Source of the DNA: Mya arenaria
Lineage: Eukaryota > Mollusca > Bivalvia > Myida > Myidae
DNA length: 64,000 nucleotides
Assembly (NCBI RefSeq): GCF_026914265.1
Contig: NC_069133.1
Location: 43,734,417-43,798,416, forward strand
Direction: 5' to 3'
A program made the position numbers and the translations under genes. Position 1 is the stretch's first letter. Every line of letters begins with the position of its first letter. This document shows positions 3,678-42,528 of this stretch, in pieces. The notes beneath the pieces were generated by a model. That model saw only the letters and a program-made list of their open reading frames with translations, was not told where the DNA came from and ran no database searches.

Positions 3678-3803
3678 ATGACTAGCGCTTCTAGTTCTGC
3701 TAAAGGTGAATTCCACATTGGTGGAAAGTACAGACTTGTTAGGAAAATTGGAAGTGGTTCGTTTGGAGATATTTATTTATCTATAAACATAGCCAATGGA
3801 GAG
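3678..3803 (+). CDS. CSNK1A1: CSNK1A1 alternative first coding exon 1a
   Basis: This exon encodes 42 residues, starting [20 protein letters not shown] and ending in the Gly loop and INIANGE. A GT donor follows directly in phase 0. It matches the usual CK1 alpha N-terminus ([20 protein letters not shown]). The ATG has A at -3 (aacaATG). A leader is presumed upstream, but no clear TATA or CCAAT element stands out. Confidence 0.93.
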
Positions 3804-6800
3804 GTATAAAATTAATAATCTTGGATATTATATATTTGAATATACATGTGCTATGTACAGTATACTACATGTACAATTGTCTATTATTGATCAATGTATA
3901 TAATTGGATGTAAACTGAACCATTCAAAACTACTTTTAAAATATATAATTATTCAATAACTGTTTCCATTGACATAAATCTAAGTAAACAGGTGAACAAG
4001 AATCGGCGTTCGTGAATTTCAAGTATTTTATTTTTCAAACGGTTAGAACAGGTTAACAAAGGGTTCAAGGCGTTTATTAATAATTCGATGATTTTATCCA
4101 TTTATAGAAACCCGTTTTAAAGTCGAGTGGAGACACATTTATTTTTAGCTCTAAATACAAGTTTCAGGTGAAAACAATGGTTTCAGATTAAATTGTGTTA
4201 AAATATCAGCAGTGACCTATATTCGGAATTGAATTAAGAAAGGATACACCTTCGCGTGACGTCACACGCAGTAATGTAGGACGCGAGTACGTGCCTCCCC
4301 TGGTAACCAATTGGCTCCGCCCATTTTCCCACACTGCACCACGATTTTCTTTGTTTACTCTGACCTCACAGCTGACTTATGTTTACAAAGGAAGATATAT
4401 GTAAATGTGTCGAAATTTGCACATCACATGTACAAGTGAAGTGAATTTTTCTTTTGTAATGGCAGACTCTGCCCGTTCTAGTACAAAATCTACCAAGAAA
4501 GAATTTATCATACATGGTAACAAGGGTAATGAATATCGTCTGGTTCGAAAAATCGGTAGTGGCTCATTCGGTGACATTTACTTAGGAATAAATGTGAATA
4601 CAGGAGAGGTTAGTTGAAGTCCGATCAAAGAAATGAACTTTATTTGCATTGTATTGTTGAATAAGTCCTCGGATTATGTTTCACGGACTGCGATTTTCGT
4701 ATTTATTTTTCAACCACTTTCGTACCCATATCCGTTCAACCCCGTATCGAATTCGCCCCGAAATATACCAGGGTAAATGATAAGTCAATACAAATATGTT
4801 CGAACAAAATGCTAGGTGTTCAAGTTACTTCTTATTTTCATGTCTGTGTTATTTACTTGAACATAATAATACAATATATACAAGAATATGTCATGAATGA
4901 AGTCATGTCTCTAATTTACATTCTGTTTTGGTTTTGATTTTTTTTCTCTTGGCAGAAAGATGTTGATACTAAAATATAATTAATCTCTTGACACAAACAG
5001 TGTTGTACATGTGATCTTTTTTTCCAGGAAACTGCCGTTAAGTTGGAATCACAAAAGGCACGGCACCCTCAGCTGTTATACGAGAGTAAATTGTACAAAA
5101 TACTTCAAGGAGGAGTTGGCATTCCTCATATAAGGTATGGCTAGTTTAGGAGTCAAAAAAGTAATGTTTCTATGCTTGCACAGAATAGTCTTTGGTTTTT
5201 CTACTGTGCCTTTACCCACTAGTCTGCCTAGTCAGTTTATATACATAGCAAAGTTGAATTTCTTTTCATGCAGATCCTAAAAAGATCACAGGATTAGGGT
5301 CTTTATTAGATTTTAAAAAGGGAGCTAGGGAAGAAAGGGGCTCATTGTATTGGGCTTAGATGATTATGAAAATATTGATAGAGAATTTTAGGAATTGTGC
5401 TTTATTGAAATAGTATTAGGTATCAACTGCCATATACTGTATGTTCAGTGTGTATGTATTTATGATATATTTGACATTTCATTCAATGAATACAGAAGGG
5501 AGGTTTTAAAAAGGACAGGGTGCAGCACTTTATCAAAACAATGATACATGTATATAAAGATGATGGTCATAAGACATTCTTTTTGTTTTGTTTTCATTTA
5601 TTTTGAGCTTTTTCTGTGAAGTTTTTATTATCTTAAGTTCCTTTTAGCCAATACCATGTCATTTTTTCTCCTTAAAACCCTGTCCTTTTCCTGCAGCCCC
5701 CTGCCTTTTCTAAACTCTGGTCAAAGCCCTTAAATGCCCATTCATGGAAATAACACTTGAATTAACAAGCATGTTACAGTTGTGCTTGGCATCACTATTT
5801 TTTTCTACAAGCAGTGGTATTCAGCATTTTAAATATGTTGCATCTTTCATAAACATTGATCTTAAGCAAAAGTCTTAGAACCCCCAAAATTTTCTTTATA
5901 AAATACACATTTAACCTAATTACAAGGCATCCCATGGATGCGGAAACAGCTTTAGATCTATGCTGGTACGTCGGTAAAAGTACTTGGTAAAATTAAAGAA
6001 AATACTTTCAATTGATTGTAGTGTTTTAATGTGTACTTTGTATTGCTAAGTTCAAATTGATTTCAAGTGAAGTGGTTTATTACATAAATAATTAAGATTC
6101 CTAAGAGTAAAGTCCTTACGTTCAACAACTAAATCGAAATTACTATGTGATCTTCTTGCAGTATAGTTAAATGTAAAGAATTCTTACATTGTAAACGGTC
6201 CATATTATACAATCTGAGGATGTTTTCGATTAAAAATGGCTGAGCAGTTCCAATTCAAATCAAATCAAATTTTATTTTCAGTCGGTATGACACAACAGGC
6301 CCCAATTTATCGAAACTTCTTAAGTCCCTTATAACAGGATTAAGCTTAAACCACTATTTTTTGTCTTTCAATATTTTGCGTTTTATATACTCAATCAAAT
6401 GTTCTAATATTTAAGAATGGAATTATCGTTACGATTATCACAATCAACCATTTCTCATTTATAAAAAATCACTTTAAGTATGTATTTTTGCTAATTGAAA
6501 TAAGAAACTTAAGCCGATTAGGCTGAAGAAGTTTCGAGAAATTGGGACCAGAAAAACATTGCCTAACAGATTGCCCCTGGATGCACATAATTGGGAATAA
6601 TGGGTCACATCAGTGCAATAACTCAACATCTGCTTCTATTTTCATATGCAGTTTAATATTGAGAAATGAGTTATTGCACTAGGGTGACATTTATTTAATA
6701 TATGGGTCCCCAGGAAAACCTATGAGTAAAGGACTAGGGGTGCATATCAAAATGAATCACTGAACATGCTTTGCTATATAAAATCCAGATTTTGAGTCAG

Positions 6801-9800
6801 CCCAGAAAGCATAATACTGGTGCAGGCCTGAATAACAAGCTTTGCTATATACCAGATATTAAGCACGCCCAGAAAGCATTTTACTAGTGCAGGGCTTGCG
6901 GGCTTGTACTCATTTCAACTATTGAATGATACAGATGTGATAAGGAAGAGCTAGTTGTTTTCAATACTTTTCCTGTTGATAGGTGATAATTATAGAGTAT
7001 CTAATTAACTCATAAAGATCGTGAACAAGCAGGAAAACGTGAATAAATAATAACCATAGCAATAACATGACCATTGTGCACAGAAAGTGGGAAACGTGCT
7101 GCCCCATATTGATCTCATTACTATGGTTATTTGCCATTAGACGGCTGTATTCAATAAGCATTGAATCATACATGATACTAAGTACATCATGTGTGGTTTT
7201 CAATATTTGGTGTAGCCAGAACTCGTATTTGTTCTAGCAGAATAATGCTTTGAAAAGAAGAAATAATAACAAAATAATCAATTATCCTGCTTTACTTGAT
7301 CCAGAACTTGAGCATGGCAAAATGCTAGTGCACTTGAGGGCTTGCAATCTTGTGCTCGCTTCAACCACTGTACTAATCATAACAAAAGTAAAGACAATGA
7401 CTACAACATGTTGTTGCAGATGTTTTGTTTAATAGAGTTAATAAAGGAATAAGCGATTTTAATTAAAATATGTATCTTGATCAATGATCATTCAGTTAGG
7501 GGCCTAAGTCCCAAAGTTTTTGTTGTATTTTGAAAAAAACATGGACCCACCCAAACTTTTTTTATATATATTGATACAAAGTTGGTCTACTCTTAAGAAA
7601 CAAACTTTATCAAACTATTTTGTCATTCCAGTCTGCTTTTTGAAGGTTTTTGTCTGTCTCTAGGCAAAACTAGACTTCCCAATTTCTGTCAAAATGAAGC
7701 ATTTTTCCAAATCCAAAAGACTCTGGCCCAACTCTCCAAATGGTGAAAAAAAAACACTGTCATTGAAAAGATGTCATTCTTGAAAATATAATGCCCCTAG
7801 AGGTCATAGTGCTTAGGGGCATTGATGGTGTTGCACTTATCATGTTGTTGCTGTCAAATGACAGTCAATCAAACTTCAGAATGCTATTAATTGATTTTTT
7901 TATAATACTTTTTTAAATTTTGTTTTATGAAAATTTACATGAAAGTACTAGTACATGTATAACAATTGAAATACCTCTACAATATATTTCTTATTCTTGT
8001 CTGAGTCATTGACATAAGTGTTAGTCAGCTCCTATTGTAATGCAATGTTACCAGTAGGTTATTAAAACTCTTTAAGAGAACTCTTAAAGCTATTTAGTGA
8101 CTTTGATGTTCAGTCTGAATAGGTGTTTGTTCTGCATTGTGTCAAGTCAGACAGAACATCAGATTTCACAAGATAAAATAAAATGACAGCATTAGCCATA
8201 ATTTGACAAAGTGTTGTGTGAACCCTCTAGAAACTGACTTGTCCCAACTAGCAAAATAAAATGGACTTGATCGCCCTAAAGTGTTTTATCAATCGATCCC
8301 TCAAGTTGGCCATACGCACTTAAGTTTAAAAGTTTAAGAAAGTTCGCCATGACTGTTTTGTCAAAATTTGTCATAAAAATGTTTAAAAGAAATCTGGGAA
8401 AGTGTCAATATTTACAATTGTTTGTAGCTGCGAGGCATATGTGATGGTTCAGTTTTTATCTCGTATTTTGGTCAGTAAAATTGGTAATTTAGAACCTGAA
8501 GTCAAACATTTAAAAGTCATAAAATCAGATGATACTTTCCCTTGAAAAACATTATCTTGATGTACCAAGCTAGTAACAACTGTACTTTAACATGAACTGA
8601 ATCTTATACATGAATTACGAGACATGCAAAAGTGAAACATTACATTGTCCGCTAATTATTTAAGAATAATTACATGATAATTCTTCTATACTTGTTTTTA
8701 ATTATAATAAAAATTGTAGGGAAGTGAAATGTGGGTCACAAAGGCCTCTTAGACAAAGTCCAATGTGACAGGGAAGTCAAGGGCTTGTACATTCCTTTGT
8801 GAAAACACCATGCAAATCATGGTCACTAGATTTTAAATGGCAAAATTAAGTTCATGTACCGGTAGTAGTCGAATATCTATAGTAGACAAGTTTGACATAA
8901 CTCCAGGCCTCCATTTCCCATTTACTGATTATGTTGTTTTAAAGATCGATGAAATGGAAATTACTCTTTTCAAAATAAATTTCAAATTTCTCGCCCAAAT
9001 CAAATTTCTCTTCTAAAATCTTACTTTTACTTTTCTTGATGAACAAAGATGACAAAACCAACAATTTTTTAGATGTACAAGCCAATATATGAAGTTTGTA
9101 CAGGCATGATGGACCTCATATGATTTTTAATCAATAATCAATCGGTTTTCAGTCTCAATAATCGATAGTAAAATTTATTGGTTTGATTACCAATACCAAG
9201 TTCCGCTATATATAGATGTTGCAGATCCACTAAACATTTTGTAACATGTATTTCAGGTGGTATGGCCAGGAGAAAGAGTACAATGCCCTGGTCATGGACC
9301 TTTTGGGACCAAGTTTGGAGGACCTGTTCAACTTTTGTTCCCGCAGATTCTCTATGAAGACCGTCCTTATGCTGGCTGATCAGGTATGCTCAAAAGCTAT
9401 GCTCAGGTACCCTCCTAAAGCTTCTGGCAGAATGTATGCGAAAAATATACGTACAATCCTTTTTTTAAATTTAGTCATGTTTTAAAAAGTGGTTATGCAT
9501 AAAAAGTAACTATCTTAAGACTAATACGATCTTAATTGAAATTGGGCCCCGGGCCCTGTTTGAAAAAAAACTTAGTTGATTTTAGTCGTGTATTTAAATC
9601 ATCTTAGTGTTATATTTTTGTTTCTTTGCAACATATTGGTGTAAATTTGGGTTTAGCCAGTATTAAAAATGAACACAAAGTTAATTATATAAATACAAAA
9701 CCAACTTGTTGACATTTGCAATGTTTCTACAGATTTAGGATTATTGAAGTTAAGAAATGGGCCCAGGTCAGGGAAAAGATTTTGTTTTGATTGCTATGTC

Positions 9801-12800
9801 ATAATGATGTCTAATTTTTATATTCTTTGTGTTTTGACCTTCTTTGATAAGATTTAGTTTTTTGTGGTCATATGAAACGTTTTTTTTGTGTACAGGATAT
9901 GCTATTAAGTAGTTGAAGTATCATATATCGTACTAAAGCAGAAAGAAATGCCATCCTGTCTTACCGTTAGTATTGTTTTTATAAACAATGCCTTCAAGTT
10001 CTTTGTCTGTTCAACCATTTTCTTTAGTTCAAATGAAGTGAAAAATGAAGCTAGGTTTCTGGTATAAAGCAATGGTTTAAAAAAAAAGCTAAGCAGCTCT
10101 GCCGTTATTATTAGTTTTACTTTTACAGGAGATATGAAAAAAGTTTTTCCTCATAAATTTGAGAAAAGATGTTTAAAAATCAACATATTGATATTTCATA
10201 CATCATTAATCAATTAGATTATTCACAATATGTTCTAACTAACGGTATAAAGTAGGGAAACATTAATTATTGTAAATCGGAGCAGTTAGAAATGATCAAA
10301 TGGCAATAGAAAAATCACATGTCATACAGTTGCAATTTCCCTGTCAGTATGTTTATGGTTAACGAATAGCTGTCATTTCCTAATTTGAAACAACTCGCTA
10401 TTAAATACTGTTGACATACATGTCCAAACACCTTGGTCAATATGTCTTGTCAAAATGTAGGTCACACTATGATAATACATGAATGTAACAATGGTCAACA
10501 ATAGCCGTACTTAATGATGGTTATTGTATACATGTATAAACATGTATAGCCTTATGGCCTTGATTATGAAGGTCGTAAAACAAATCATTAACATGTAGAA
10601 GATGTATTTACAATTTGATGTACCTGTATAATTGAAATCTTATTTGTAATACAAACAGTGCTAGTAAAGGCGTTTAAATATTTAAATATATGGCTACTAG
10701 GCATGTGGCATAGTGTTTAATAATAACACAGAAATGGTTAAAAAATTATATGTTTATAGAATAAAAATAAATGTTTTTTTCACAATTTCTATGTAATGTG
10801 GACACATTATAATGATCTATGGTAAATGATGATAGTGTTCAAAAGAAAATTAGCATTATTTAATCAATAATGTTAAGACAAATTGAAATGGTATACAAGC
10901 TGATTAGTTGTGTATGATTTCTTATACAAATAGTTAATTAAGTTGTGAACTTTTAAGATTGGCCTTCAAAATGTACTCTGCAGTTTCGTGTTTAAACATT
11001 GAACATTTTTCTCCTGATTTGGATAATACGGGTAAATGAAGTGAATCTAATGATAAAAAATATGACATGAGCTTCATGAAATCTTTTTTAGCCAGAATCA
11101 ACAATATTTCATGATAATTCAAACTTGAATGTCAAAATCACCTGATAAAAAAAATGGTACAAATAAAACTGATTTGATTTGATTGAGAGCGACGCACATT
11201 TGATAAAGTGCAATTTGTACATGTATGTATTATTCTTTTCATTAAACGATGGCTGAGCTAAGCATCAATGATTTTCATTTAATTTATAAGTTATCATTAA
11301 ACTGTATAAAGAGGAAGTTTGGTCTCCTTGCTAACCATGGTATTTGAGGGAAATTAGTAATAACCAAATGTTTAACATCAAAATAATTGGAAAGACTTAA
11401 AAATTCCCCTGGTGCTGTATTTTTTGCAATGCACAATACAACAAAAAAGGGCTTCATAAAATACCATTAAAGTGACACTCTTATTCAAAATCAATACATA
11501 CAGATGTATAACAAACATAAATTTTGACTGGTACACCTAAAACTACTTACTAAATAATGCATTTATGGAAAATATCAATTATTGATAACAAGATTGTAAC
11601 CGTGTATTTAATAGCAGAAAGCGCTAAAATATTAAATGATTGGTGAATGCTAAAAGATTTACTGTGGTTTACTATAGTTTTATATGGTAGAAATACTGTG
11701 TTTTATGCTCATTTCTTTCAAATTCAACTCGGTATCCTTCATGAGAACCATTGTTCGACATTTATTCATACATTTTGGAATATTAAATCAAAAGTTTTAA
11801 TTGTGGTAAATCTTACATGGGAATAAGAGTGCATCTTTAAAACTTCCAAATTCATCTGTCTCATCCTTTTGTTAGGAGCTTTAAAGTTCAGGATTAAATC
11901 TGAAATCAGTTTTGAGATTTTCAACTTCAGACTATCGTACGGTTGTTAAGATCGTTTTTTTTGCTTAGTCTAGACGTGATCAACAAAAACAGTGGGATGT
12001 ACTTTGAAATGATTATAAATTACTTTGGAAACAGTTTCAAAAACGGTCTAATTAAGCACCATGTTAAACCGTGCTTTGGGCATAAATCCCTCAAACTGAT
12101 CACCGGCTGTTTCACATGATTGACAACTATCAGCTGTTAGAATCCCTATGGTAAAATACATCGATACGGCTGTTACTTAGATTGCAAAGAAGCGCATGTA
12201 ATATTAAATCTATATATCCTCTTTAAGGCCTAAAAAATACATTTGGTTCGGGTAACTCGACCCCACCTTCAAAACAGTGCCAACCCTAGTGTTTTTATAG
12301 CAAAAAAATCTTTATCTTTTATTTTTTAAGTGTGTGTTTTCCATGTTGTTGAAAAGCTTTATGCAGAAGATTACTTTTATTAGCACCATTCTTCACTGAT
12401 GACAATTATGTTCTTATAAATTATAAAGCCTTAAAAAAAATGTATTTTTTTTAAATAGCCTACCTACGTACACTACCTGTTTTGGAAAAGGGTGTAACCC
12501 TTACCAAACTTTTTTGGCCTTATCATCATATTCTTGCATCTCTAACAACATGTGTAACTTTGTATTTCAGATGATCAACAGAATCGAATATGTGCATAAC
12601 AAGAACTTCATCCACCGCGATATAAAACCGGACAACTTCCTTATGGGAATAGGTCGACACTGCAATAAAGTGAGTAGAGCACCCGCCCGCTGATTACTCA
12701 CCTGTCAGTGCATAATAAAGTGCACACCTTGTGTAAATAGTGCAAAGCCAAGAGTGTGTCACTTAATGTTGTTATCTGTTGTGGTTTTGATACAAAGATC

Positions 12801-15800
12801 GAGCATAAATATGAATACAGGGAAGTTTGAAAGTTAATAATAGTACTAGTGATAAAAATTGTATGAAAAAAAAACGATTTCCTTTTTTAGTATCAGTCTG
12901 CGTGATGTCGCAAGCCCAAATGTTGGTTAGACATCTTCTGCACCCATTGATATTTTAGTGCAGCATGCATGAAAGACTGGATCATAATTTATAAACTATA
13001 GTTGTTTAAATAGAAAAAATCCCTTGACAGGACAAAAAATGAAAAGTTTGACCAATCAGAAAGAACTCTTTACCAATTTAAAAAAGTCTCATTCCAGCAT
13101 GAACCTTTGGTTGATAATAAAACTGGTATGAGTCATTTACATGGGGCTTATTCACAAAAGGATTTATAGGTTAAATTTGTGTTTTCTAAAATTAATCTAT
13201 TTTCTCAACTGTTTTATAACGCACTGGTAGAAAATGTTATAACTTATCATTTGATTCATGTTCAATGTATAACACTTATATGCTGAAGTATTGTTTTCTC
13301 AAAACATGTTATAAAATAAGGTCTTTAGATCTTTACTTGAAGTCATGACTAACGAGGTGTAACTTTTCAAGTATTTCTTTTCAATTACAATGTTATCCAT
13401 GTCATGTATCGTGACATCAGTTTTCGAAACGTTTTGAGTTATTTTTAAACATTGTAAATCACATGAAATGGCACAGTCGACTAAGAAATATTATTTGGTT
13501 GGATGGTTGTATTTTTCTAACCATTATTTTGCAATTACCTATTGGTAATGTAATATGTAATTGTCTATTGTTGTGGTATGTTTATTCGGCGTATGTGCAT
13601 GAATTATTTCTCTCACGTGTTTCATGTTTGCATACCTTAAGCCATTCACATTCTTAAAAACTGTGTATGCAGACAATGATCACGGTACATACATGTATAG
13701 CTTTTATCAAAATACAAATATATAGACCACAAGCTACTTTAAATATATTCTATGTAATGACATCGTCATTTTACGACACCAGAAATAAACATTTTTTAAT
13801 GACATTAACGCTTTAATTACTGGCTTCCATGATAGCCAATGTTTTATTTTAGGTACTTGTTATTGAAATAAAACATTAGTGCCTTTAGAATACATGTACA
13901 TGTTCCTAGTCCATTCATATTTCAAAGAAATAAAGGTCAAATTACTTTCCATTTTATCATTGATAATTATTCCACGTTTAACATCACATGAATTCTTGCA
14001 TTTAAAGTGATAGTCTGGGGGCTAATGTCTGGGGGCTAATTGTTTGAACTTGTGTTAAAAGTTAAAAACGTTTTTAACATCGTTATTAACAACCTTTATA
14101 GCTGTACTACTCAGTTAGTTTTAAAAACAAATATCTAAAAATAGCAATTTAATATAAAAACAAATATCTAAAAATAGCAATTTAAATTAATAAAAAATAA
14201 TTTAAAATAACGATTTTAATGGCGAGGACAGTTTCTTTATTCAGCGAGTACACTTGACAAGTATATTTGTAAAGTTATTTACCTCATAAGTCCTAAAAAT
14301 GTATATTTTCTCTGAACAGGTATTCTTGATAGACTTTGGCCTGGCGAAGAAATATCGCGACAGTCGCACACGGCAACACATTCCTTATCGGGAAGATAAG
14401 AACTTGACCGGCACGGCTCGATATGCTTCCATCAATGCTCACTTAGGTAAATATTTCCACCTCTGCATCCTTTTAATGTACCAGTCAATTGTAACCGCAG
14501 CCCCCCCAGGTCCAAGAAATAGCGGGGACTTTCGTTCCAGGAAAGCCCGGGTAACATCTCCATCCTAACTGATAGTAAAATCCCTGCCAAATGTCCCCGC
14601 ACCCCAGGGACCCCTAGCTAAGGCCCATTACCCACTATATTTGACGCGAAGACAAAATCACCGCATTCACCTGGCACTGCTGGGCCACCAGGAAGGTAAA
14701 AACACGGCCCATTTCCCCTGGACCTATGGGGGCGTGGTTAGAATTGACTGGTGCATTAGCTTATATATGTTTTAAAAAAAATGCCTCTGCGTCAATTTAG
14801 CCTTGGTGTTGCCATATCCTTGCCTTGGTTTTCGTCATAGAATAAGTGTCGTCATATTTGGGAGTAGACATAGATAAAGAGTTATGGAAGGGTGCTGCTC
14901 CATGTCCTTTTTTGGTAGCACCCTTTTGTCCTCATGGAGACCAGCATAGGGTATCTTCTGCCTTCATAGAGTTAATTGATAAAGACTAAATATGAGTCTC
15001 AAATTTTAAAAGAACTAGGTTATAAATACAATTTTTTAAATATTTGGTAGTTTAAACCTAAAATAACTTTAATTATACCCCCCAAGACAAAGTTTGGGGG
15101 GGTATACTGGAATCGGGTTGTCCGTCCGTCTGTCCGTCCGGTTTTTTTTTGTCCGGGATTCATCTTTGTCGTTATTGAACAAATCTTTTTCAAACTTTCA
15201 AATATTAATGACCATGATGTAAACCTGTGCCTCCGTGGATTTGGTCAGAGTCGCATGATCCTGAGTGGAGTTGTGGCCCCTTAATGAGTTAAATTGGGCA
15301 AAATTAGCTTTGTCCAGGATTCTTCTTTGAAGCTATTGAGCAAATCTTTTTCAAACTTTCAAATATTAATGGCCATGATGTAAACCTTTGCCTCCATGAA
15401 TTTGGTGGGAGTCACATGATCCTGAGTGGAGTTGTGGCCCCTTAATGAGTTAAATTGGGTAAAATTAGTTTTGTTCGTCCTACTCCTTCGTCATTTTTGA
15501 ATGAATCTTTTTCAAACTTTTAGCCATGGTGAGAACATTTGCCCCTGTGATTGTGGTTGGAATCACATGATCATGTCTCCAATTATGGCCCCTGAATAAG
15601 TTAAAATAGGCAAAAATTATACAGCTTTGTCTAGCCTAATCCTTGGTCATTTGTGATCTCTGCTGCAGTGCCATGGCAGTCCCTGATTCAGTAATAGGTA
15701 TTCTAAATAAACTAAATAAATGTATTGCCTTGTGCTTTCTAATGATACCATAACTAAGGCCAGGGCAAACAACCTAGACAGGGAAGGGTTGGGGGGTATT

Positions 15801-18800
15801 CGTTAGCCTTTGGCTTACAGTTCTAGTTAAACACAAAATCGGTGAATGACTTTTTTGGTGCAATTCATAATGTTCAAGTTCATAACAGCTCCCCTTATCA
15901 GGTCTCCCTTTCTTCCTTAGAACCCTGTCCCTTTTGCAGCACCCTGTCCTTTTTAAAACCTGGCTAAAACCCTATATGGCCTTAGGTTAGTCATAGCCTT
16001 GGGTTTGTCATAGCCTTGGTGTAGCATGTACATTTTCAAAAATATAAGCAATGTTTTAGCACTTATTTAACTGGGAAATTTGTGGCCACGTAATTAAATA
16101 AAAAAACACATTTATTTCTTGATAATATTTTTTATCTGTACCTTATTCATATGCCTTTTTTTATTTTGATCGAATGCATTTAAATTTTGAAAAAATAAGT
16201 TTTTATAGCATCAACCCTTTATAATGTGCGCCATAAATGCTTCCTGCTACAAATTTAATAATAAAAAAAGTAGATATATTTCAGATTAACGTTACATTTG
16301 CGTACCGACAGATACCATACAAGTGATCTATAAAACTATAAAGCTTCTTTTGAATCAAATTGTTTACACATATCCTGGGTTTGAACAAAGGCTCTTATGT
16401 TTTTTATCAATGAAAGGTTAAGAAGATTACTTATAAGTACCATACCTTGAGCGAAGATCGTATTTGTTTGTTCGCATACAGTGATTCATAAAAAAACACA
16501 CAAACAAAGCAGTTACGGACTGTTCTGATATATGAACCATTTTTAATACTTTATAAATACTGTCTAGTGTATTAAATTCACCATATACAGGCATTTAGCG
16601 ATATGATGAAATTGCTTGCAAAATAAATTAACATACACTTGAAAATCACAAGAAAAACTTTTATCGACACCATCAGTAAAATTCATGACTGTAATAAAAG
16701 CAAAAAGCGTCAATTGACTCAAAGCATTCAAATTTTATTTAAAGTTTTAATAAGTGTGTATATGTATCAGTTTGTTGTATTCAAAGGTAAAATAATAAAG
16801 CAGAGTTTTCTCATATTAACATTCAATTCATAATTGTGTATAAACCATTATACATCAGTTAGTTCAAGATTATAAATTTCAATGTAATATTAATGCAAAT
16901 TTAACCCTATGACCCCATTTTCCAATAGTTCATATTGGTAATATCGTGTCTGTTCAATGTCCCTCTATGATCTAAACGGGCTAGATTTGTCATTTTATGG
17001 ATTGTGTTTCAAATGATCAATGTACACATGTATCTAAGTAAGGCCATTAAAAAAAAAATGTAATTTGCACTGTTGAGATGAATTCATCATTAAAAACCCT
17101 GGAACAAAAACAATTGAGCCTCTGGCGTTTTCCAAAACAATAGATTTTAAGCATGCAAGATTGTTCTTTTTTTGTTAATGATTAGTCAGGGATGATAAAA
17201 TAATTCCCGATGTACTGAAAAAAAATCCGAGGTTGAGTAAATGAAGCAAACAATATTTCTTAGTGGCCTAATGATCAATATTTGCTTTCTGTTGATCGTA
17301 TTTAGGAGAATCGGTTAAACAATATAAGGCCCCCTCTGACTGTTTAACTGATAGGCATTACAAAAGTCATTGTGAAAATAGCTCATGTAATCAGTAATCT
17401 GATTGTATTGGGTCAAGAAAGCGTGAACAACAGATTAATACAGCGAGAGATATAGATGAATTTAAACCTTAATTTCATCTTTCAAGTACAACTGTCAGTT
17501 ACACAGGAATACGCAGTTGGCACGTTTTTGAACACAAGCTGAAAGGCGGATCCTTCAGGGTTGTTATCCATGGCGTTTATTTTTAGTCTGAAATAATAGC
17601 TGTCTCCTTTTGATCAAGACTATTCAATGATGGTGCAACATCGTCAACGCCCATAAGCAGCTTGCTCATAATGCCCTGTTCTATTTTGTACTCTATGACG
17701 TTATACGGATGAGAGAAAGTAATAATTTTAACTTAGTTTCTATGTGACAGATTAATTTATACTACCGGTACTTAGGCGAACTGAAGCACTGCAGAATTCT
17801 TCAATGATTGAAATATTCACGCAAGTCTGGACTTGTTAAAACCTCACGAGTTTTGTTTTATGTTTATAATCTTATACATACTCTTGGTTTAAAAACTTGA
17901 ATATGAACATAATTATGGTATTCAGGTTTGTTTAAATCTTTATTTCAATATCTACAAGACTACTCCCTTGTGAGTCATAAGTTTTAACTCATTCCTTTTC
18001 CTTTTGAAAACCATAGATCTATTAACTGTTTGTTCATCAGGAAGTGATCAGTGGTCTAAAAAGTCATGTAGTGCACATCCTGAAGTGGTATGTTTTAACA
18101 AAGCAGTGCTTGTTACAATTTTTGAGCCAAATATTGTTGTTCAAGAATTTGGGTTTATTATTAAAAAAGTCTACTTTTGATGTCAGTCCCATACAATGTC
18201 GGAGCTTTTTACCAAATATTGGGAAGAGGCCTGGGATATTTTAGTGCGTAAAAGCTTTAAATAGGGAAATTTTGGTACGTTAACAACTTTAGGAAAAACA
18301 AGTCTGAAATTTGATATAAAAATACATTAAATGTATATCAATGTCCACCCATGCTTCAGCTAGGCCTAAATAGCAGGGTGGGGCACCCCTGCCCTTTTCC
18401 AGCACCCTGTTGCCGTTTTTCTACATTTTGTTGTGCCCTGCTGTTTGACATGGTCAATTTTCAGAAATAAGTGTAAAAATAATAAATATACATTTTAAAG
18501 AAAAGGTGACAGCTAAGGTATTCATAACAAACTATTATTATTGATAGTAGTTACAACACATACACAATGTGAACTGAACATTGGCCCTTGCAAGTGCCCC
18601 ATTAAGGCTCATTCTGTGCACATCGAAAGTGCCCTTTCTGAGCTAGCTCACAGCTCTCTTCAATTCCTGGCTGGAGCATTATCTACGATTATGAAATTGT
18701 CAAATTTTGGCCTGTGCTGAAGAAGATGGAAAAGTCCAGAAAGTGTTTGCTGGGTGTCAGACTTGTGTTATATTATCCTATGTTTGTTTCAGGCATTGAA

Positions 18801-21800
18801 CAAAGTCGACGAGACGATATGGAATCTCTGGGATACGTCCTCATGTACTTCAACAGAGGAACTTTACCATGGCAGGGGCTTAAGGTTTGTTCTTGAACTT
18901 CTGTCATTGTTTTTTTTTATAATCGTTACAAAAATTGGCAAAGACGGGCTTGATTAGGAATGGAAGGTAAACCATTGTATATTTTTGATAATGGTATACT
19001 TTTTCAGTAGACTGCTTCATTTTCATAAAATCTTTTTTGAAATTTTATTTGACCAGTTTTGAGAGGTCTGAAATTCTTGAGGCATTAATATAGCCACAAG
19101 AAAGCGATGGAAAATAAAAAATAGCGCTTGATTTTTAATTCACAACCTGACTGATTGGCGTAAAGTCATGAAAAATAAACCCTCCCAAACTTAAAACATT
19201 TCATCAATATAAAAATCACTTCAGATGTGGTTTAGTGAGAGGTGCAAAGAAAGTTGGAAAAATAGGGGTGCGTGCCTTGGCTAGTAAATACAGCGTTGAA
19301 GCTAATATCAAAGTTTGATGTTTCAGACGACAAATCTCACCCCGCTTTGTCTCCCTGTTTTGACCCCTTATAATGCATAATAACCGGAGGCTTTATGCTT
19401 TAGAAAAATATATAAGATAGTGAGTCTCTGACACCAAGCAAGAAGATACGTTCTTTATAAATATTAAAGATAACTCTTTTCAAAATGCTCCTGTACACAG
19501 TTATTTCTCATTAAATTGTTAAGCGTACATCTATTGTTATGTTATGCAATTGTATTTTGTTCTAGAACACAATCAATATTATTTTCCTTATTTTTTACAA
19601 TCTCCAGTGCTTACCGCTAAGTACCGTTATAATGCAGATCTGATTGGCAAAATTATTGCAGAACAGGTGTCCATTTCAATAATCTTATGGCTTAAGATCT
19701 TAAATTTCCTTTTTGGGCTTAAACTGCGTTTCAATAAAAGAAATCTGAAGAACATTTATCAAATTAATTCTGCCAGTTACTTAACGGGTGTCTCTCAGAT
19801 GTGTCAACTATCGGACCCATTCCCCTAGCAAAATATATGGGTTTTTTTGTTTTTATGAAATTCTTTTTACATGTAATGGTTCATTCAACATCCTAATGAA
19901 TTATGTGATGAAAAGTTGTTTATCACATTCAGAGATCAGTATACAATATAATCTGTCATGATTTTGTTGCAATAAAAGATAATTACACCCCAAGGATTGA
20001 TATTACAAGTCTTTTGAAAAGGAGAAAAACTAATATTTTAATTAGTTCCTCATCAGCAGGAGACAGAAACGCTTGTCCTATAAACTGATTTTTTTTATGT
20101 AAAGCTGTGGTTTTCTTTCTCAAAATGGCATATTTCTCGACATAAATTTTCCCAAAATGTCTAGGGTCTTTTTCCAAAATGGGCAGAAAAAAGCGTGCAG
20201 CATATTATGGTTAACGGCTAAGATACCTAATTGTAATGGTCCCATGCTGCTTATGTCATAGGTCCAAGATCAAATACATGTATTTACTAAGTCGGTATTG
20301 AACATGTGTGTGTGATAATTGCTTCCATGTGTGTTGATCACACCTGGTGTCCACTGCTTACAAGTCAGATGCTTGACCAGTTCAGCTGACCAGTCTTGTC
20401 CAGTATTTACAGTATATTCTCACATCATCCTCAAAATATTAATGTTACAGACAATCTTCAATAAATTAATAAAAGGCCTAATGTTGACACATTTCTGTGG
20501 TCTAGTGGTTAAGGCATTTGCCTAAGAAATAGAAAAGGTCATAGGAAATCCCAGCTTGTTCTCGAATGACAAGTAACGTGCTGACCAATCAGATTGTTGA
20601 TTGGATAGCAGAGTACAGATTGGCATCCTGCCAGATGATCTAAAAATTGTGCATAGATTTCAATCTATAAATCTGATAAGTGCAGCATTTGTCCAGCTAA
20701 TTCAAAGGAGTGACTCCATAATAAACAAAACTGTTCTTTTATAATATACCATACTTGTTTTGATGTAAACAGCATGTGATCCAATACATCATCGACATAT
20801 GCACTTGGAATGTGACTGGCCTATTTTTAACAGATGATTTTCTTAGAAAGGAATAACCAAGGCTGTGTGTTATTTGAGAAGTCAAGGAGATGAAGTCTGG
20901 ATTTCCATGATCAATATTTTCTTTGTTTTGCGTGACATTTAGAATGATATGTATGAAGATATTAAAGGAACACCCCACCAATTCTATTAAATTCATTTCC
21001 AGGATCTGTATTAAATAAACATTTTGAGATTGCAGTGGGGTTTTTTTTCGGCCCTGATCTGGGCCTAAATTTGGCTCCAATCGCATCCTGAAATAGTATT
21101 TATTTATCCCCTACCCGTTTAAAAGACTGAGTTAAAGGGAACACAGTTTTGGGGCGTAACTAAGGACATTTACCCCTTCCGCCGAACTGAAAAATATTTA
21201 GTTAGGGGATTTTGGTACTTATTGTACATTTTTTTCAGGTATTTTTAGTCTGAAATAATGGAATTTTGGCACCCTAAGATATATATAGAAATATTTCCCT
21301 TTAAATCTATAAGAAAGGGAATCTGTTTGAAGGACCTGAAATCAGCTTAGTTTGCATTTGTCCGGCTGAATATTTCGGTGATCCTTATGTCCTGCAAGTC
21401 CAAGAATGAGATTGGTTAATGGATTTGCATATATCCGTAGATTCGATGGACCCACAAACACCCTTATAAAAAAACGGAAAAAAAATGGATTTCTTCATAT
21501 GCCCAAGGAATTGACACTCCAGTTTGTATGTGGCCTCCTTACCTAAACCGTTACATTGAAATCTATGATTTATGATTTTTCAGTAGTGTATGAACAGAAT
21601 TTTAGTTACAGGAGCAGCCATGTTGTTGTGGACCAAATTCAGTATTCAATTATGATGTGACAAGTGGCAACAAAACTTCATAGTCTTTAATGGCATCTTT
21701 GTATTCCTGTATTTATTTTCGTTTCAGGCAGCAACAAAAAAGCAAAAGTATGAAAAAATCAGTGAGAAGAAAATGTCAACCCCTGTAGAAGTACTGTGTA

Positions 21801-24800
21801 AGGTATGTCATATTGCTTTTCCCTTGAAGGGTGTTGGTGGTATTAAATAGATCAATTGTGATGTTAATGTGAAATGGAAGCAAATGGTTGTCAGGTAAGC
21901 GCACTCACTTCTGAATAAGGCAACCAGGGTTTAGATTCCCGGCCATGCTCATGCGAGTTTTGTTTGTGGTCGCCCAGACTGTCAAATTGGTTTTCTCCAG
22001 GTTCTCCAGAATCTCCCACTATACAAGATCTCAATCTCGCTCAATATCGTGACTTGCCATATTTCGTTAACATAACTTCCTGCACAAACGTAAAATAAAA
22101 AAATATTTTAATAAAATGGTAGCAAGTTACAATGTTACAATAAGATAAAGAAGGTAATGGTATCTTTGGGTATTAGCCCTACAAAATACAAGTTTATCCT
22201 TAGGAAATTTCAAATAATTAATTATAACCACTTAAAAAGTTAACTATTATTTACACAGAGTAATTTAAAGAACATAAAAATTCGCATTAAAACCAGATTG
22301 GACTTTAATATAGCCTTGAGACAGTTTGTAATCTTAAGCCCAGAGACATGTACTCTTGCAGGGGTGATAAAGTCCTGGGTAAATCTTGAAATCAGGATAG
22401 AAAGCTTTCAACTTCAGACTATCATACAGTTCTAAACTTGTTTTAAGCACTGAAAAATGACACTGGCATTTTTCATGTTTAAATCAAAAGATAATAAATA
22501 TTTGATAATTTTTAGTATCTAATTCTATGAAGGCAGTAGGGTGCACATTCTGGTCATTATGAGCGCAGAAGGGTGCTTCCATAAGAAATAGAAGGAAGTA
22601 CCGTACACTAAAATGTCTCTCTCTCCCCCCTCTCTCTTTCTCTCTCTCCCTCCCTCCCGCCCTCTCTCTTTCTCTCTCTCCCTCCCTCCAGCCCTCCCTC
22701 CCCTCTCTCACCCTCCCTCCCCTCTCTCTCGCTCTCGCTCTTGCTGTTGTTCTCTCTATATATATACATTCATATATGGACATTAAGACGTACCAGTACA
22801 TAAATGACATTGGAAACAATTTTAACAGAGGTCTAAACCACTTCAACTTTCAGTCTACTATCAGCCTGAATCCCTCGTATTCAAACAAAAAAATCAAGAT
22901 ATAATGAAGTGGTATTTTTGGTCTGTCTTCATCCCTGGTCACAAAGTACACCGGTTCTGTTTTTTTACACAGACAAAAGAAATCAAGAGGGATTACATAT
23001 TGGCTTTTAGCTGTCACGATGTTCAGAAATAAGGAAATTAAGTCACATTTGGAATAAACACGTGCCTCTGTTGTTGACTGACTGGAAGCAAAACAGAGTA
23101 ATCAGTGATATTTTAATAATACCTCGCACTGGTATATTCATTCACATGTATGACACTTATTTGAATATTTGAGTAGGAAGGTGATTTTGTTCTACCTGGG
23201 TTTACTTGAATCAATAACTTGTATCACGCAATGTCATGCTTTTTTAGAATAATCTGGGCATCTAGTGCCTTATTGCATTTTAATATGCTTGTGTCAATTT
23301 TCTGTATTTATAAGGAATGATAAGCTATTGTCGAAACCTGAATATTGATTATGCTTCTGTCAGTGACAGTATTTGTGATATATCTTGTGCTTGTTGCCTG
23401 GTTGGTGTTGAAAGTTGTGAGAATGACAAAAATCTCTGAAGTTTTCGCGTATAGTATGCTTGTTTGTTGTGTTTTCATATGATGAAAAATATTTACTGTT
23501 CAGAACCAAACACTCGGACAAGAACAGTTTGACGTATTGATCCACAGTGTGTCTTTCAGATTTGACAATTCCACAAAACTAACCATTACAGCTTATAATG
23601 GTCTATGTGGTATAGGTGACGGTGACAGTGACCTCTCAATTAAGGGGTTTTTGGTCCGAACCCCACATATTGCCATGTTCTGTTGAATCAGAATTTTATT
23701 TTTTGTTTCTTTCTATTCATTTCTGTTTTTTTAGGGGCCATATTCAATATCCGGCTTAGATTTAACTTAATTTTCAGAGTAGAATTTGGGGCTTTATTCA
23801 ACAATATACATATATTTATCTTTAGAATTTCTGTATGATTCCATTCAATCGATTGGCCAAATGATTTTTATCAGTCCAATCGAAACACTGAGATTTTACT
23901 CTAAAAGCTAAGTAAAATTTAGGCTGGTTATTAGATATGGCCTAGGGAAACAGACTGTTGAGTGATCCATAATCAGCTACATGTATAGCTGGCTTCATAA
24001 GCAATCTTGAATTAAACATTTTCTTTCTACCTATCAAGCTTATGTCAAAAAGGCACTACATGAGTGAAAATGTCCTCTTATGGGTCTGAAAATTTGCAGT
24101 ACAAAACAATGTGAACTTACAAATAGCTTTTGAAAACTACTAGTATACATTTCAGTTTTAACATTTGAATTCTATTTATAGGGCTACCCTGCGGAATTTG
24201 CGATGTACCTCAACTACTGTCGGGGCCTTCGTTTTGAGGAGGCGCCAGACTACATGTATCTGCGTCAGCTGTTCCGTATCCTGTTCCGTACCCTCAACTA
24301 CCAGTACGACTATGTGTTCGACTGGACGATGTTGAAACAGAAGGCTGCGGGGGCCTCGTCTGCTGCCCATGGCTCAACGGCTCTAGCTACCGCAGGTATG
24401 GATATGACTTAATCACTGTTAAGTGCTTGCACTAGATTTCTAGCCAATGGCAGACTTTAAAATCAATGGATGAGAACTACTTCAAGTTGATTCGATGAAT
24501 CAGGTGATCTTTCTTATGATGAATAGATCCAAAATGGTGAATTGTGCTGATTTCACCAGCTTGCTGTTCGTTGACCTTTCAATATGCAATAAAAACCTTT
24601 ATAGGCAACTAATTTTAATGTATTTTTTCACAGAAGTCATAAGGAGTCATATTTTATTTATCTTTAAAGCTGTAAAATAAATTGAAATTGTTTTCTAATT
24701 TTTTCCTTTTATTCACAAACTTACTGATTTGAACTTGTTATAGCGCTTCAGATTGGTGAACAGCCTAGGACAATCCTTAGTATAATAGATTTTATTTTAA

Positions 24801-32769: not shown

Positions 32770-35700
32770 CACTATGCTTAACCGAAACTCACAACCAAAG
32801 GGACATAAACTATGCTTAACTAAAGCTCACAACCAAAGGGACATGAACTGTGCTAAACGAAGCTCACAACCAAAGGGACATTAACTGTGCTTAACCGAAG
32901 CCCACAGCCAAAGGGACATAAACTGTGCTTAACCGAAACTCACAACCAAAGAGACATAAACTATGCTTAACCGAAACTCACAACCAAAGAGACATAAACT
33001 ATGCTTAACCGAAACTCACAACCAAAGAGACATAAACTATGCTTAACCGAAACTCACAACCAAAGGGACATAAACTATGCTTAACTAAAGCTCACAAACA
33101 AGAGGTCGTAATTATGCTTAACCAAAGACAAAGTCATAGACTATTCTTTACTGAAGCTTACAACCAAGAGACCTAACTTATGCTTAACGGAAGACATGAA
33201 CTATGCTTAACCGAAGCTCACAGCCAAAGGGACATAAACTGTGCTTAACCGAAGCTCACAACCAAAGGGACATGAACTGTGCTAAACGAAGCTCACAACC
33301 AAAGGGACATTAACTGTGCTTAACCGAAGCCCACAGCCAAAGGGACATAAACTGTGCTTAACTGAAGCTCACAACCAAAGGGACATGAACTGTGCTTAAC
33401 CCAAGCTCACAACCAAAGGGACATAAACTGTGCTTAACCAAAGCTCACAACCATGGGACATAAACTGTGCTTAACCGAAGCTCACAACCAAAGGGACATA
33501 AACTGTACTTAACTGAAGCTCATAACCAAAACATAAACTGTGCTTAACCGAAGCTCACAACCAAGAGATATTAACTGTGCTTAACTGAAACTCACAACCA
33601 AAGGGACGGAAAATGTGCTTAACCAAAGCTCACAACCAAAGGGACATGAACTATGCTTAACCCAAGCTCACAACCAAAGGGACATAAACTGTGCTTAACC
33701 AAAGCTCACAACCATGGGACATAAACTGTGCTTAACCGAAGCTCACAACCAAGAGACATGAACTGTACTTTACCGAAGCTCATAACCAAAACATAAACTG
33801 TGCTTAACCGAAGCTCACAACCAAGAGATATTAACTGTGCTTAACTGAAACTCACAACCAAAGGGACGGAAAATGTGCTTAACCGAAGCTCACTACCAAA
33901 CAGACATAAACTGTGCTTAACTTAAGCTCACAACCAAAGAGACATAAACTGTGCTTAACTAAAGCTCACTACCATACAGACATAAACTGTGCTTAACCAA
34001 AGCTCACTACCAAACAGATATAAACTGTGCTTAACCAAAGCTCACTACCAAACAAACATAAACTGTGCTTAACCAAAGCTCACTACCAAACAGACATAAA
34101 CTGTGCTTAACCAAAGCTTACTACCAAACAGACATTAACTGTGCTTAACCAAAGCTCACTACCAAACAGACATAAACTGTGCTTAACCAAAGCTCACTAC
34201 CAAACAGACATAAACTGTGCTTAAATGATGCTCACAACCAAAGGGACATAAAATGTGCTTAACCAAAGCTCACAACCAAGAGACATGAACTGTGCTTAAC
34301 CGAAGCTCACAACCAAAGAGACATAAACTGTGCTTAACTGAAACTCACAACCAAAGAGACATGAACTGTGCTTAACCGAAGCTCAAAACCAAGAGACATT
34401 TACTGTGCTTAACTGAAGCTCGTAACCAAAACATAAACTGTGCTTAACTGAAGCTCACAACCAAGGGGACATTAATTGTGCTTAACCGAAGCTCACAACC
34501 AAAGAGACATAAACTATGATTAACTAAAGCTCACAACCAAAGAGACATAAACTGTGCTTAACCCAAGCTCACAACCAAGTGACATAAACTATGCTTATCT
34601 GAACCTCACAACCAAGAGACATAAACTATGCTTAACCGAAGCTCACAACCAAAGAGACATAAACTGTACTTAACCGAAGCTCACAACCGAGTGACATAAA
34701 CTATGCTTAACCGAACCTCACAACCAAAGAGATATGAACAATGCTTAACTGAACCTCACAACCAAGAGACATAAACTATGCTTAACTGAACCTCACAACC
34801 AAGAGACATAAACTATGCTTAACTGAACCTCACAACCAAGAGACATAAACTATGCTTAACTGAACCTCACAACCAAGAGACATAAACTATGCTTAACCGA
34901 AGCTCACAACCAAGAGACATGAACTATGCTTAACTGAACCTCATAACCAAAGAGACATAAACTATGCTTATCTGAGCCTCACAACCAAAGAGACATAAAC
35001 TATGCTTAACTGAACCTCATAACCAAAGAGACATAAACTATGCTTATCTGAGCCTCACAACCAAAGAGACATAAACTATGCTTAACTGAACCTCACAACC
35101 AAGAGACATAAACTATGCTTAACTGAACCTCACAACCAAGAGACATAAACTGTGCTTAACTGAAGCTCACAACCAAGAGACATAAACTATGCTTAACTGA
35201 ACCTCACAACCAAAGAGACATAAACTATGCTTAACTGAACCTCACAACCAAAGAGAAATAAACTATGCTTAACTGAAGCTCACAACCAAGAGACATGAAC
35301 TATGCTTAACTGAACCTTACAACCAAAGAGACATAAACTATGCTTAACTGAACCTCACAACCAAAGAGACATAAACTGTGCTTAACTGAAGCTCACAACC
35401 AAAGAGACATAAACTGTGCTTAACTGAAGCTCACAACCAAAGAGACATAAACTGTGCTTAACTGAACCTCACAACCAAAGAGACATAAACTGTGCTTAAC
35501 TGAAGCTCACAACCAAAGAGACATAAACTGTGCTCAACTGAAGCTCACAACCAAAGAGACATAAACTGTGCTTAACTGAAGCTCACAACCAAGTGACATA
35601 AACTATGCTTAACTGAGCCTCACAACCAAGTGACATAAACTGTGCTTAACTGAACCTCACAACCAAAGAGACATAAACTATGCTTAACTGAACCTCACAA

Positions 35701-38466
35701 CCAAGAGACATAACCTATGCTTAACTGAAGCTCACAACAAAGAGACATAAACTATGCTTAACTGAACCTCACAACTAAAGAGACATAAACTATGCTTAAC
35801 TGAACCTCACAACCAAGAGACATAAACTGTGCTTAACTGAACCTCACAACCAAGAGACATAAACTATGCTTAACTGAACCTCACAACCAAGAGACATAAA
35901 CTATGCTTAACTGAAGCTCACAACCAAAGAGACATAAACTATGCTTATCTGAACCTCACAACCAAGAGACATAAACTATGCTTAACTGAAGCTCACAACC
36001 AAAGAGACATAAACTATGCTTAACTGAAGCTCACAACCAAGAGACATAAACTGTGCTTAACTGAACCTCACAACCAAGAGACATAAACTATGCTTAACTG
36101 AACCTCACAACCAAGAGACATAAACTATGCTTATCTGAACCTCACAACCAAGAGACATAAACTATGCTTAACTGAACCTCACAACCAAGAGACATAAACT
36201 ATGCTTATCTGAACCTCACAACCAAAGAGACATAAATTATGCTTATCTGAACCTCACAACCAAGAGACATAAACTATGCTTAACTGAACCTCACAACCAA
36301 GAGACATAAACTGTGCTTAACTGAACCTCACAACCAAGAGACATAAACTATGCTTATCTGAACCTCACAACCAAAGAGACATAAATTATGCTTATCTGAA
36401 CCTCACAACCAAGAGACATAAACTATGCTTAACTGAACCTCACAACCAAGAGACATAAACTATGCTTAACTGAACCTCACAACCAAGAGACATAAACTAT
36501 GCTTAACTGAACCTCACAACCAAGAGACATAAACTATGCTTAACTGAACCTCACAACCAAGAGACATAAACTATGCTTATCTGAACCTCACAACCAAAGA
36601 GACATAAATTATGCTTAACTGAAGCTCACAACCAAAGAGACATAAACTGCTTAACTGAACCTCACAACCAAGAGACATAAACTGTGCTCAACTGAAGCTC
36701 ACAACCAAGAGACATAAACTATGCTTAACTGAACCTCACAACCAAAGAGACATAAACTATGTTTAACTGAACCTCACAACCAAAGAGACATAAACTATGC
36801 TTAACTAAAGCTCACAACCAAGGGGACATTAATTGTGCTTAACCGAAGCTCACAACCAAGAGACATGAACTATGCTTAACTGAACCTCACAACCAAAGAG
36901 ACATAAACTATGCTTAACTGAACCTCACAACCAAAGAGACATAAACTATGTTTAACTGAACCTCACAACCAAAGAGACATAAACTATGCTTAACTAAACC
37001 TCACAACCAAAGAGACATAAACTATGTTTAACTGAACCTCACAACCAAAGAGACATAAACTATGTTTAACTGAACCTCACAACCAAAGAGACATAAACTA
37101 TGCTTAACTGAACCTCACAACCAAAGAGACATAAACTATGCTTAACTGAACCTCACAACCAAAGAGACATAAACTATGTTTAACTGAACCTCACAACCAA
37201 AGAGACATAAACTATGCTTAACTGAACCTCACAACCAAAGAGACATAAACTATGTTTAACTGAACCTCACAACCAAGAGACATAAACTATGCTTAACTGA
37301 ACCTCACAACCAAGAGACATAAACTATGCTTATCTGAACCTCACAACCAAAGAGACATAAATTATGCTTAACTGAAGCTCACAACCAAAGAGACATAAAC
37401 TGCTTAACTGAACCTCACAACCAAGAGACATAAACTGTGCTCAACTGAAGCTCACAACCAAGAGACATAAACTATGCTTAACTGAACCTCACAACCAAAG
37501 AGACATAAACTATGTTTAACTGAACCTCACAACCAAAGAGACATAAACTATGCTTAACTGAACCTCACAACCAAAGAGACATAAACTATGTTTAACTGAA
37601 CCTCACAACCAAAGAGACATAAACTGTGCTTAACTGAACCTCACAACCAAAGAGACATAAACTATGCTTATCTGAACCTCACAACCAAAGAGACATAAAC
37701 TATGCTTAACTGAACCTCACAACCAAAGAGACATAAACTATGTTTAACTGAACCTCACAACCAAAGAGACATAAACTATGCTTAACTAAAGCTCACAACC
37801 AAGGGGACATTAATTGTGCTTAACCGAAGCTCACAACCAAGAGACATGAACTATGCTTAACTGAACCTCACAACCAAAGAGACATAAACTATGCTTAACT
37901 GAACCTCACAACCAAAGAGACATAAACTATGTTTAACTGAACCTCACAACCAAAGAGACATAAACTATGCTTAACTAAACCTCACAACCAAAGAGACATA
38001 AACTATGTTTAACTGAACCTCACAACCAAAGAGACATAAACTATGTTTAACTGAACCTCACAACCAAAGAGACATAAACTATGTTTAACTGAACCTCACA
38101 ACCAAAGAGACATAAACTATGCTTAACTGAACCTCACAACCAAAGAGACATAAACTATGTTTAACTGAACCTCACAACCAAAGAGACATAAACTATGCTT
38201 AACTGAACCTCACAACCAAAGAGACATAAACTATCCTTAACTGAATCTCACTACCAAAGAGACATAAACTATGCTTTACCGAACTCACAACCAAGAGACA
38301 TAAACTATGCTTGACTGAAATTGTAACCAAAGGACATAAACTGTGTTTAACCGAAGCTCACAACTAAGGGACATTAACTTTCTTAATCGAAGATCAAAAA
38401 ACCATGAGACAAAAAATGTGCTTTACCAAAGCTCACAACCAAAAGACATAACCTGTGCTAAACTGA
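32770..38466 (+). repeat. 5.7 kb minisatellite, 37/38-bp unit, about 150 copies
   Basis: The unit is CTTAACTGAACCTCACAACC followed by AAAGAGACATAAACTATG. It is 38 bp with AAAGAG and 37 bp with AAGAG. Variants zone along the array. The first kilobase favours GAAGCTC, GGGACAT and ACTGTG. A block at about 33885-34230 has CTCACTACCAAACAGACAT. From about 34700 on, GAACCTCACAACCAAGAG with ACTATG dominates. TAA occurs in each unit and the period is not a multiple of three for the 38-mer, so it is not coding. Long multi-unit segments recur, for example 36604-36770 against 37361-37530. Edge units are decayed. Confidence 0.97.
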
Positions 38467-41316: not shown

Positions 41317-41509
41317 TCAAAAGAACTTGACGCCTTCGCTGTCACCAAACGCCATAAGCTCAGCCTTGCCATCTCTCTCGAGGGTTTGAAGCGCACGTTT
41401 GAGCAGCCACAGTTCGAGGCCATGGAATTCCTCACCCTCTGTTTCCTCCCCGTTAGAGAGTTCAAACAGCGTACACACTGTGTTTGTCATACTTTTTCCT
41501 GTGATGTAT
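41317..41509 (-). CDS. VPS25: VPS25 exon 2
   Basis: Acceptor ttttgcag (minus) ends at 41510. It encodes YITGKSMTNTVCTLFELSNG, EETEGEEFHGLELWLLKRAL and QTLERDGKAELMAFGDSEGV ending KFF and a TGA stop. Human VPS25 ends GRGVKFF. Confidence 0.95.
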
Positions 41510-42220
41510 CTGCAAAAATAAAATAAGTTTGGATATTTGCAATTGATCAAATTACTGAACAATGTGTCCGAAAATATTTTTTTTCCCTTTTCTGTTACCA
41601 CCAATACACAATATAAATTGAAAATTGGCAATTGCAAGTGTCACATTAAGGCTCATTCAACATACATCAAAAGTGCCCTTTCTGACCTAAGCACCCTGCC
41701 CTTTTCAAATTCTTGCTAGAGCACTGCATGGATGTTTGAATAATTAAGAATATTGTATGATTAAGTCATATTGCAATATAATACTTTATATTGAAAAAGA
41801 ACTTGCATAACAAGATGCTTAAGTGAAAAAGAATCACTTCACATCTTATAGAGTACAATAAAAAAGATAGTTCAAATTAACATACTTATATATGAGTTTT
41901 CCCCACTCTTCTGGCGTCCGCCACATAATGAGGGCCTCTTTTCTCGTCTTAGGGTCCTTCCATTCAAGATGGCCCTTTTTCCGCAATTCTTCCAGAACCA
42001 TAATGACTCCATCGACCGATAACTTACGATTGATTGATTTGTTCGTGAAGATCGAGGAATGAACCTCGTTCACATCCAGTGAATGACTGTTACGTGCCCG
42101 TTGCTGATCCAAGACCAGCTGGCACCAAGCCTCCAGCTGTTTTTTTCTCGTGTCTACATTTGGTTGTATTGTGAAGAATGGCGGAAAGTTGAACTGCCAA
42201 GGTACTTCAGTAGAACCCAT
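41317..42220 (-). CDS. VPS25: Vacuolar protein sorting 25 (ESCRT-II subunit)
   Basis: VPS25 is the ESCRT-II subunit, two per complex with VPS22 and VPS36. It recruits ESCRT-III (VPS20/CHMP6) during multivesicular-body sorting on endosomes. Two exons, 42220-41886 and 41509-41317, join in frame to 175 aa (human 176). The start MGSTEVPWQFNFPPFFTIQP carries the PPFF motif that docks on VPS22/VPS36. Then come NVDTRKKQLEAWCQLVL, VLEELRKKGHLEWKD, IMWRTPEEWGKLIYKYI and, in exon 2, TLFELSNGEETEGEEFHGLE and a GVKFF end. Two winged-helix domains fill the length. An upstream in-frame ATG (42253) is ignored because family proteins start just before the WQF motif. BBIP1 lies 308 bp upstream on the same strand. 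Confidence 0.95.
41634..41723 (+). repeat. Dispersed repeat (family E), copy 2, in the VPS25 intron
   Basis: GCAAGTGTCACATTAAGGCTCATTC and CATCAAAAGTGCCCTTTCTGA match 18590-18680. It also contains AGCACCCTGCCCTTTTCAAA. It takes up a quarter of the 376-bp intron. Confidence 0.55.
41886..42220 (-). CDS. VPS25: VPS25 exon 1
   Basis: This exon has 111 codons plus 2 bases and holds the first winged helix and most of the second. Donor gtatgt on the minus strand at 41885-41884. The open frame beyond the donor is intronic. Confidence 0.93.
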
Positions 42221-42528
42221 CTTGACCCAATGTTGTTTATACAACACCACCAATATGTATTTTGAACGAAGTACAGCAGTTTAACAAAATAACTTTAAAT
42301 AACACACTGAACACCCAGCAACTGAATATGAGAGAGCTTAAACCTTCAGTCACTCAGAAATAGTCAAGTCTATTCAAATAATACAAGAACACTTTAATTT
42401 ACAAGCAATATGTTTTTTCGAAAAAACAAACACTAAAAGGTAACTGCCAAAGACAATGTCAGTGAAAATTTAACAGCAAGTTGTCAGTTTCAATCTTGAC
42501 ACAATATGTTAAGACATTCAAGTCTTTA

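Follow-up and report, generated by a model that had tools for sequence, protein, structure and literature searches.

Two putative alternative first coding exons in a CK1-alpha gene of the bivalve Mya arenaria

A stretch of 64,000 nucleotides from the bivalve Mya arenaria (assembly GCF_026914265.1, contig NC_069133.1, positions 43,734,417 to 43,798,416 of the forward strand), termed the window at its full length, carries an entire CK1-alpha gene on its + strand, with two first exons and seven common exons. The two first exons, 1a and 1b, are paralogous, their amino-acid sequences are constrained, and either one joins the same exon 2. Probably, exon 1 of a single CK1-alpha gene was duplicated long ago, and the two copies now serve as alternative first coding exons, each with a promoter of its own and each leading to a complete kinase. 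CK1-alpha is a key Wnt kinase, and its N-lobe sequence is strongly conserved. A gene design with alternative first exons is in itself ordinary. A gene that keeps two constrained versions of exon 1 is nevertheless a natural experiment that bears on which surface positions of the N-lobe are important for partners and turnover, because the swapped exon contains the Gly40-anchored hairpin that is used in cereblon targeting (parts of PMC8421366).

Gene structure

The gene was located by tblastn, with a human CK1-alpha sequence as the query, and exon borders were then set by inspection of splice sites. The coding exons are as follows (a slash marks an exon border).

3678..3803, + strand: first coding exon 1a; 42 residues, ATG start, Gly loop; donor GAG/gtataa after 3803, phase 0
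4459..4608, + strand: first coding exon 1b; 50 residues, ATG start, Gly loop; donor GAG/gttagt after 4608, phase 0
5028..5134, + strand: shared exon 2; ETAVKLE..., catalytic Lys; common acceptor ...ttttccag/GAA at 5028
9257..9383, + strand: shared exon 3
12571..12669, + strand: shared exon 4
14320..14446, + strand: shared exon 5
18793..18884, + strand: shared exon 6
21728..21802, + strand: shared exon 7
24182..24412, + strand: shared exon 8; reads on to TAA (...AGMDMT), or possible splice at 24395

When a script joins each first exon to the seven shared ones and the last is read through to the TAA, the result is open frames of 327 residues (1a) and 335 residues (1b) with a common C-terminus. 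The kinase domain is complete in the joined translations, the Gly loop, catalytic Lys and DFG motifs all being present. Both first exons bring a start codon of their own and are joined to exon 2, from their own donors, in an identical phase, and the original prediction was accurate in the translations, coordinates and junctions that it gave for both, from the ATG and Gly loop to the phase and the acceptor at 5028. In-frame stops are found 5′ of both ATGs, at 3654 for 1a and at 4402 for 1b; 1a and 1b are therefore each a start exon as they stand. The term mutually exclusive, which had been applied to the pair, most likely holds in the sense of alternative first exons and not in the sense of internal cassette exons.

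Two further features lie within the gene. The C-terminus of the kinase is possibly alternative, in that a splice at 24395 could lead to a candidate last exon at 29243, which would add GR and a stop. The intron after exon 5 contains, at 15148-15520, a 161 bp unit in about two copies with 85-90% matches.

Paralogy and constraint of exons 1a and 1b

In a search of PDB sequences, CK1-alpha is the best match for both first exons, ahead of CK1-delta/epsilon. Exon 1a matches human CK1-alpha (5fqd_C) at E 1.1e-14 with 56 bits, and exon 1b matches the same chain at E 2.8e-09 with 39.9 bits and a 4-residue gap; the second match of 1b is CK1-epsilon, at 36.3 bits compared with 39.9 for CK1-alpha. Over a 25-residue core, 1a differs from human CK1-alpha at 3/25 positions and 1b at 5/25, and 1a is the nearer to the human protein. 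Within the window the two exons retrieve each other at E 2.7e-13 and 3.9e-13. No third copy of exon 1 was found in the window, the next best matches after these having E values of 0.66 and 0.95.

The 25-codon cores of 1a and 1b are identical at 21/25 residues and differ at 5 first, 3 second and 17 third codon positions. Third positions thus differ at 17/25 compared with 8/50 for first and second positions together (Fisher p 1.4e-05), and even inside an identical block of 17 residues, 12/17 third positions differ. The exons are paralogs in which synonymous divergence far exceeds replacement divergence, as in duplicated exons under constraint. Values of dN between them are 0.11-0.17 (maximum likelihood (ML) and NG86), and synonymous sites look saturated; the ML dS values of 9.7 and 19.4 are unusable as numbers. 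In 10,000 copies simulated from the 1a core, with all positions mutated at the rate seen at third positions, an average of 2.2/25 residues was retained, with a maximum of 9/25, and 70% of copies had a stop. Exons 1a and 1b are best read as paralogous copies from an old exon 1 duplication, kept under amino-acid constraint. That both are intact, as had been proposed, is borne out by the whole frames and by a divergence pattern that requires such constraint.

Other searches were negative. Neither exon alone reaches E 0.01 in Pfam, which is not surprising for exons of only 42-50 residues. Relatives of exon 1b were absent among 31 pattern stretches from viral contigs; the 311 stretches from genome contigs included no animal sequence and two relatives, both from bacterial metagenome-assembled genomes (one with 42% identity over 45 residues, the other with 45% over 29), which were not used further. 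No Rfam family was found in the window at gathering cut-offs.

Putative promoters and proposed transcripts

A motif cluster is situated upstream of exon 1b.

4257..4322, + strand: putative exon 1b promoter; cAMP response element (CRE) TGACGTCA at 4257, CCAAT at 4307, ATTGG at 4310, GC box CTCCGCCC at 4315

A single site in the window combines a CRE, CCAAT/ATTGG and a GC box inside 120 bp (5 of 6388 overlapping scan segments, with starts at 4211-4251). The motifs were picked after the sequence had been read, and the cluster is therefore support and not proof. The donor of 1b is fair, with a score of 3.58, sixth of nine, and 1.1% of the 3479 GT sites in the window score at least as high; donor scoring was based on splice-site frequencies. 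Translation from the upstream ATG at 4405, which is in the frame of exon 1b, would extend the protein by 18 residues, but the start context, judged by eye, is better at 4459.

The simplest reading is that of two promoters, one for each alternative first exon, under which both exons would be transcribed. Transcripts that start upstream of 3678 would have 1a spliced straight to exon 2, with 1b skipped within intron 1, and transcripts that start near 4330-4400 would begin with 1b and be spliced to the same exon 2. Each transcript type is predicted to yield a complete CK1-alpha that is probably active. The putative 1b promoter, with its CRE, CCAAT and GC box, resembles broadly active CREB-type promoters, and 1a is likely to be the more regulated.

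Contrary observations and alternative explanations

Several observations weigh against two promoters and two exons in use. A motif scan of the 500 bp upstream of 1a yields just TATA-like matches, a single E-box and a single CRE half site. CpG ratios in the 300 bp upstream are ordinary for both exons, 19% and 22% of scan segments being as high, and neither promoter thus has the support of a CpG island. The donor of 1a, with a score of -0.46, is the lowest of nine, and 11.6% of the 3479 GT sites score at least as high. Upstream ATGs are found within 300 bp of both exons, three before 1a (3587, 3602, 3625) and six before 1b (4177, 4274, 4379, 4399, 4405, 4428). With respect to a joint message that contains both 1a and 1b, 6/8 AGs at 4440-4600, taken as exon starts, break the frame, but the other two (starts 4498 and 4525, with 10-11/20 pyrimidines) keep it; frame alone therefore does not preclude inclusion of both exons. 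As to rates, NG86 yields no dS for 1a and 1b, and LWL85 and YN00 gave no estimate.

Some of these points bear on the possibility that a single first exon is now in use and that the other is a recently silenced duplicate that is still to decay. In favour of this, 1a has the weakest donor and no motif cluster, and 1b is further from human CK1-alpha (5 compared with 3 core differences, 39.9 compared with 56 bits). Free drift of one copy was simulated from the 1a core in 5000 runs, the observed state being taken as at least 21 residues retained and no stop. Drift at 10% of sites leaves this state in 28% of runs, which allows for recent disuse of one exon and also counts against the preferred reading; the proportion falls to 5.5% at 15% of sites and to just 0.9% at 20%. 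Both exons, however, retain an open frame, their start, their donor and the conserved residues, and a silenced duplicate is considered unlikely.

A shared upstream non-coding exon might alternatively be spliced to either 1a or 1b, which would make these true internal mutually exclusive cassettes. The acceptor scan, which covered 4440-4600 around exon 1b, displays a pyrimidine-rich stretch (13/20 pyrimidines) that ends in the AG at 4465, a score equalled by two more of the eight scanned AGs; splicing to 4466, however, removes the ATG of 1b. The motif cluster directly upstream of 1b also speaks against cassettes, as does the RNA fold of 3804-4100, the sole stretch folded, which shows nothing unusual (z 0.15). 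This arrangement is decidedly unlikely. Invertebrate assemblies can contain unpurged haplotypes, but an assembly artefact or haplotype duplicate is highly improbable here, since 17/25 third positions differ while residues are kept, as in an old constrained duplicate, and the non-overlapping flanks share short matches only, the longest being 45 bp at 71% and the lowest E value 0.021 (a single long match in the flank comparison is the overlap 3859-4300 against itself).

Differences between the two protein forms

If two alternative first exons are in use, the two forms of the kinase differ in limited segments. A run of 17 consecutive residues is identical in 1a and 1b, and beta-1, the Gly loop and beta-2 are common to both. 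The differing parts are the flexible head, a 4-residue insert before beta-1 in 1b and the exon end, which reads SINIANGE in 1a and GINVNTGE in 1b. The original prediction spoke of two different N-terminal lobes. Its basis is sound in that head, insert and hairpin turn differ, but the phrase is overstated, because the strands and loop between them do not differ, and shared exons encode the catalytic Lys and the remaining N-lobe. In the stretch that ends with YRL, 1a has 3 Lys/Arg and 1 Asp/Glu, and 1b has 6 Lys/Arg and 3 Asp/Glu, such that the net charge is close.

The exon end lies at the position of the human Gly40 cereblon hairpin. The counterpart of Gly40 is kept in both forms, as Gly41 in 1a and Gly49 in 1b according to the alignments of the PDB matches. 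As described in parts of PMC8421366, the Gly40-anchored beta-hairpin of human CK1-alpha serves both lenalidomide-dependent and Wnt-driven cereblon targeting. In human cells, complete nuclear localisation requires the N segment of CK1-alpha together with its L segment, and full rescue of Wnt control is confined to variants that contain the N segment but lack L (sections of PMC11255964). Since the two forms have beta-1, the Gly loop, beta-2 and all residues encoded from exon 2 onward in common, and differ in head, insert and hairpin turn, a difference is expected outside catalysis. It is a fair guess that the 1a and 1b forms would have different partners, localisation or turnover; their catalysis is less likely to differ. 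A bolder proposal is that of a conserved invertebrate switch that alters the cereblon/Wnt hairpin and the N-terminal docking surface, whereby one form would be stable and broadly made and the other turned over or targeted differently. This is quite unlikely.

Comparison with known systems

Among mouse kinase and phosphatase loci with at least 50 counts for both starts, the majority have mutually exclusive starting exons, over half of these within intron 1 (PMC1431701). This pattern is counted as support for alternative first exons in the Mya gene. The likeness is one of class and not of family, and the term 'csnk1a1' has no occurrences in the main text of PMC1431701.

PRKACA and PRKACB are similar as kinase genes with alternative 5′ coding exons joined to one exon 2. 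Their exons 1-1, 1-2 and others precede a common exon 2 and give isoforms that differ N-terminally, and invertebrate PKA genes have highly diverse 5′ exons (parts of PMC3625193 and PMC5526564). The PKA alternative exons, as these parts describe them, code for tails before a shared core (residues 16-350 of C-alpha-1). Exons 1a and 1b, unlike these, include beta-1, the Gly loop, beta-2 and the hairpin turn, and each can be recognised as a copy of the other. A PKA precedent from Aplysia was looked for as well, but the open-licence literature searched gave no paper that confirms it. Kinase genes commonly have mutually exclusive first exons, as sections of PMC1431701 indicate; duplicated first exons with the Gly loop inside them seem to be less usual.

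The vertebrate CK1-alpha splice variants are likewise isoforms of the same kinase from a single gene. Published variants combine N, L and S segments, of which L and S are inserts, and a table of published variants in PMC11255964 includes L and S forms for human, bovine, pig, rat, chicken and zebrafish. In the parts of that paper considered, the named N-segment changes remove the N segment together with some of the N-lobe, with no exchange for a second intact one. The original prediction, which held that vertebrate isoforms do not arise by a duplicated first exon, agrees with this: the variants named there are L/S inserts or N-segment losses, whereas the Mya gene has two intact first exons. A human CK1-alpha variant with another start may exist, as figure 1A of the same paper marks further 'unique sections' of single variants. 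Among the matches listed in a search of open-licence literature, no title or abstract opening refers to alternative first exons or a second intact first exon in CK1-alpha. An L-insert-like exon was sought in intron 4 of the Mya gene with a simple filter, and there were no candidates.

Other features of the window

Downstream of the kinase gene, a tandem array of a 38 bp unit extends over 33192-38466, with about 141 copies and 91% matches; related copies, detected by eye, begin near 32770. On the - strand at 41317-42280 is a gene for an ESCRT-II subunit, with at least two exons (Pfam PF05871, E 7.5e-36 and 1.4e-06), which we take to be VPS25. Also on the - strand, at 55360-58753, a frame with a C-type-lectin domain (PF00059, E 1e-05) is found together with the frame of a mucin-like, Thr/Pro-rich stretch that leads into a hydrophobic segment; these frames perhaps form one membrane lectin gene.
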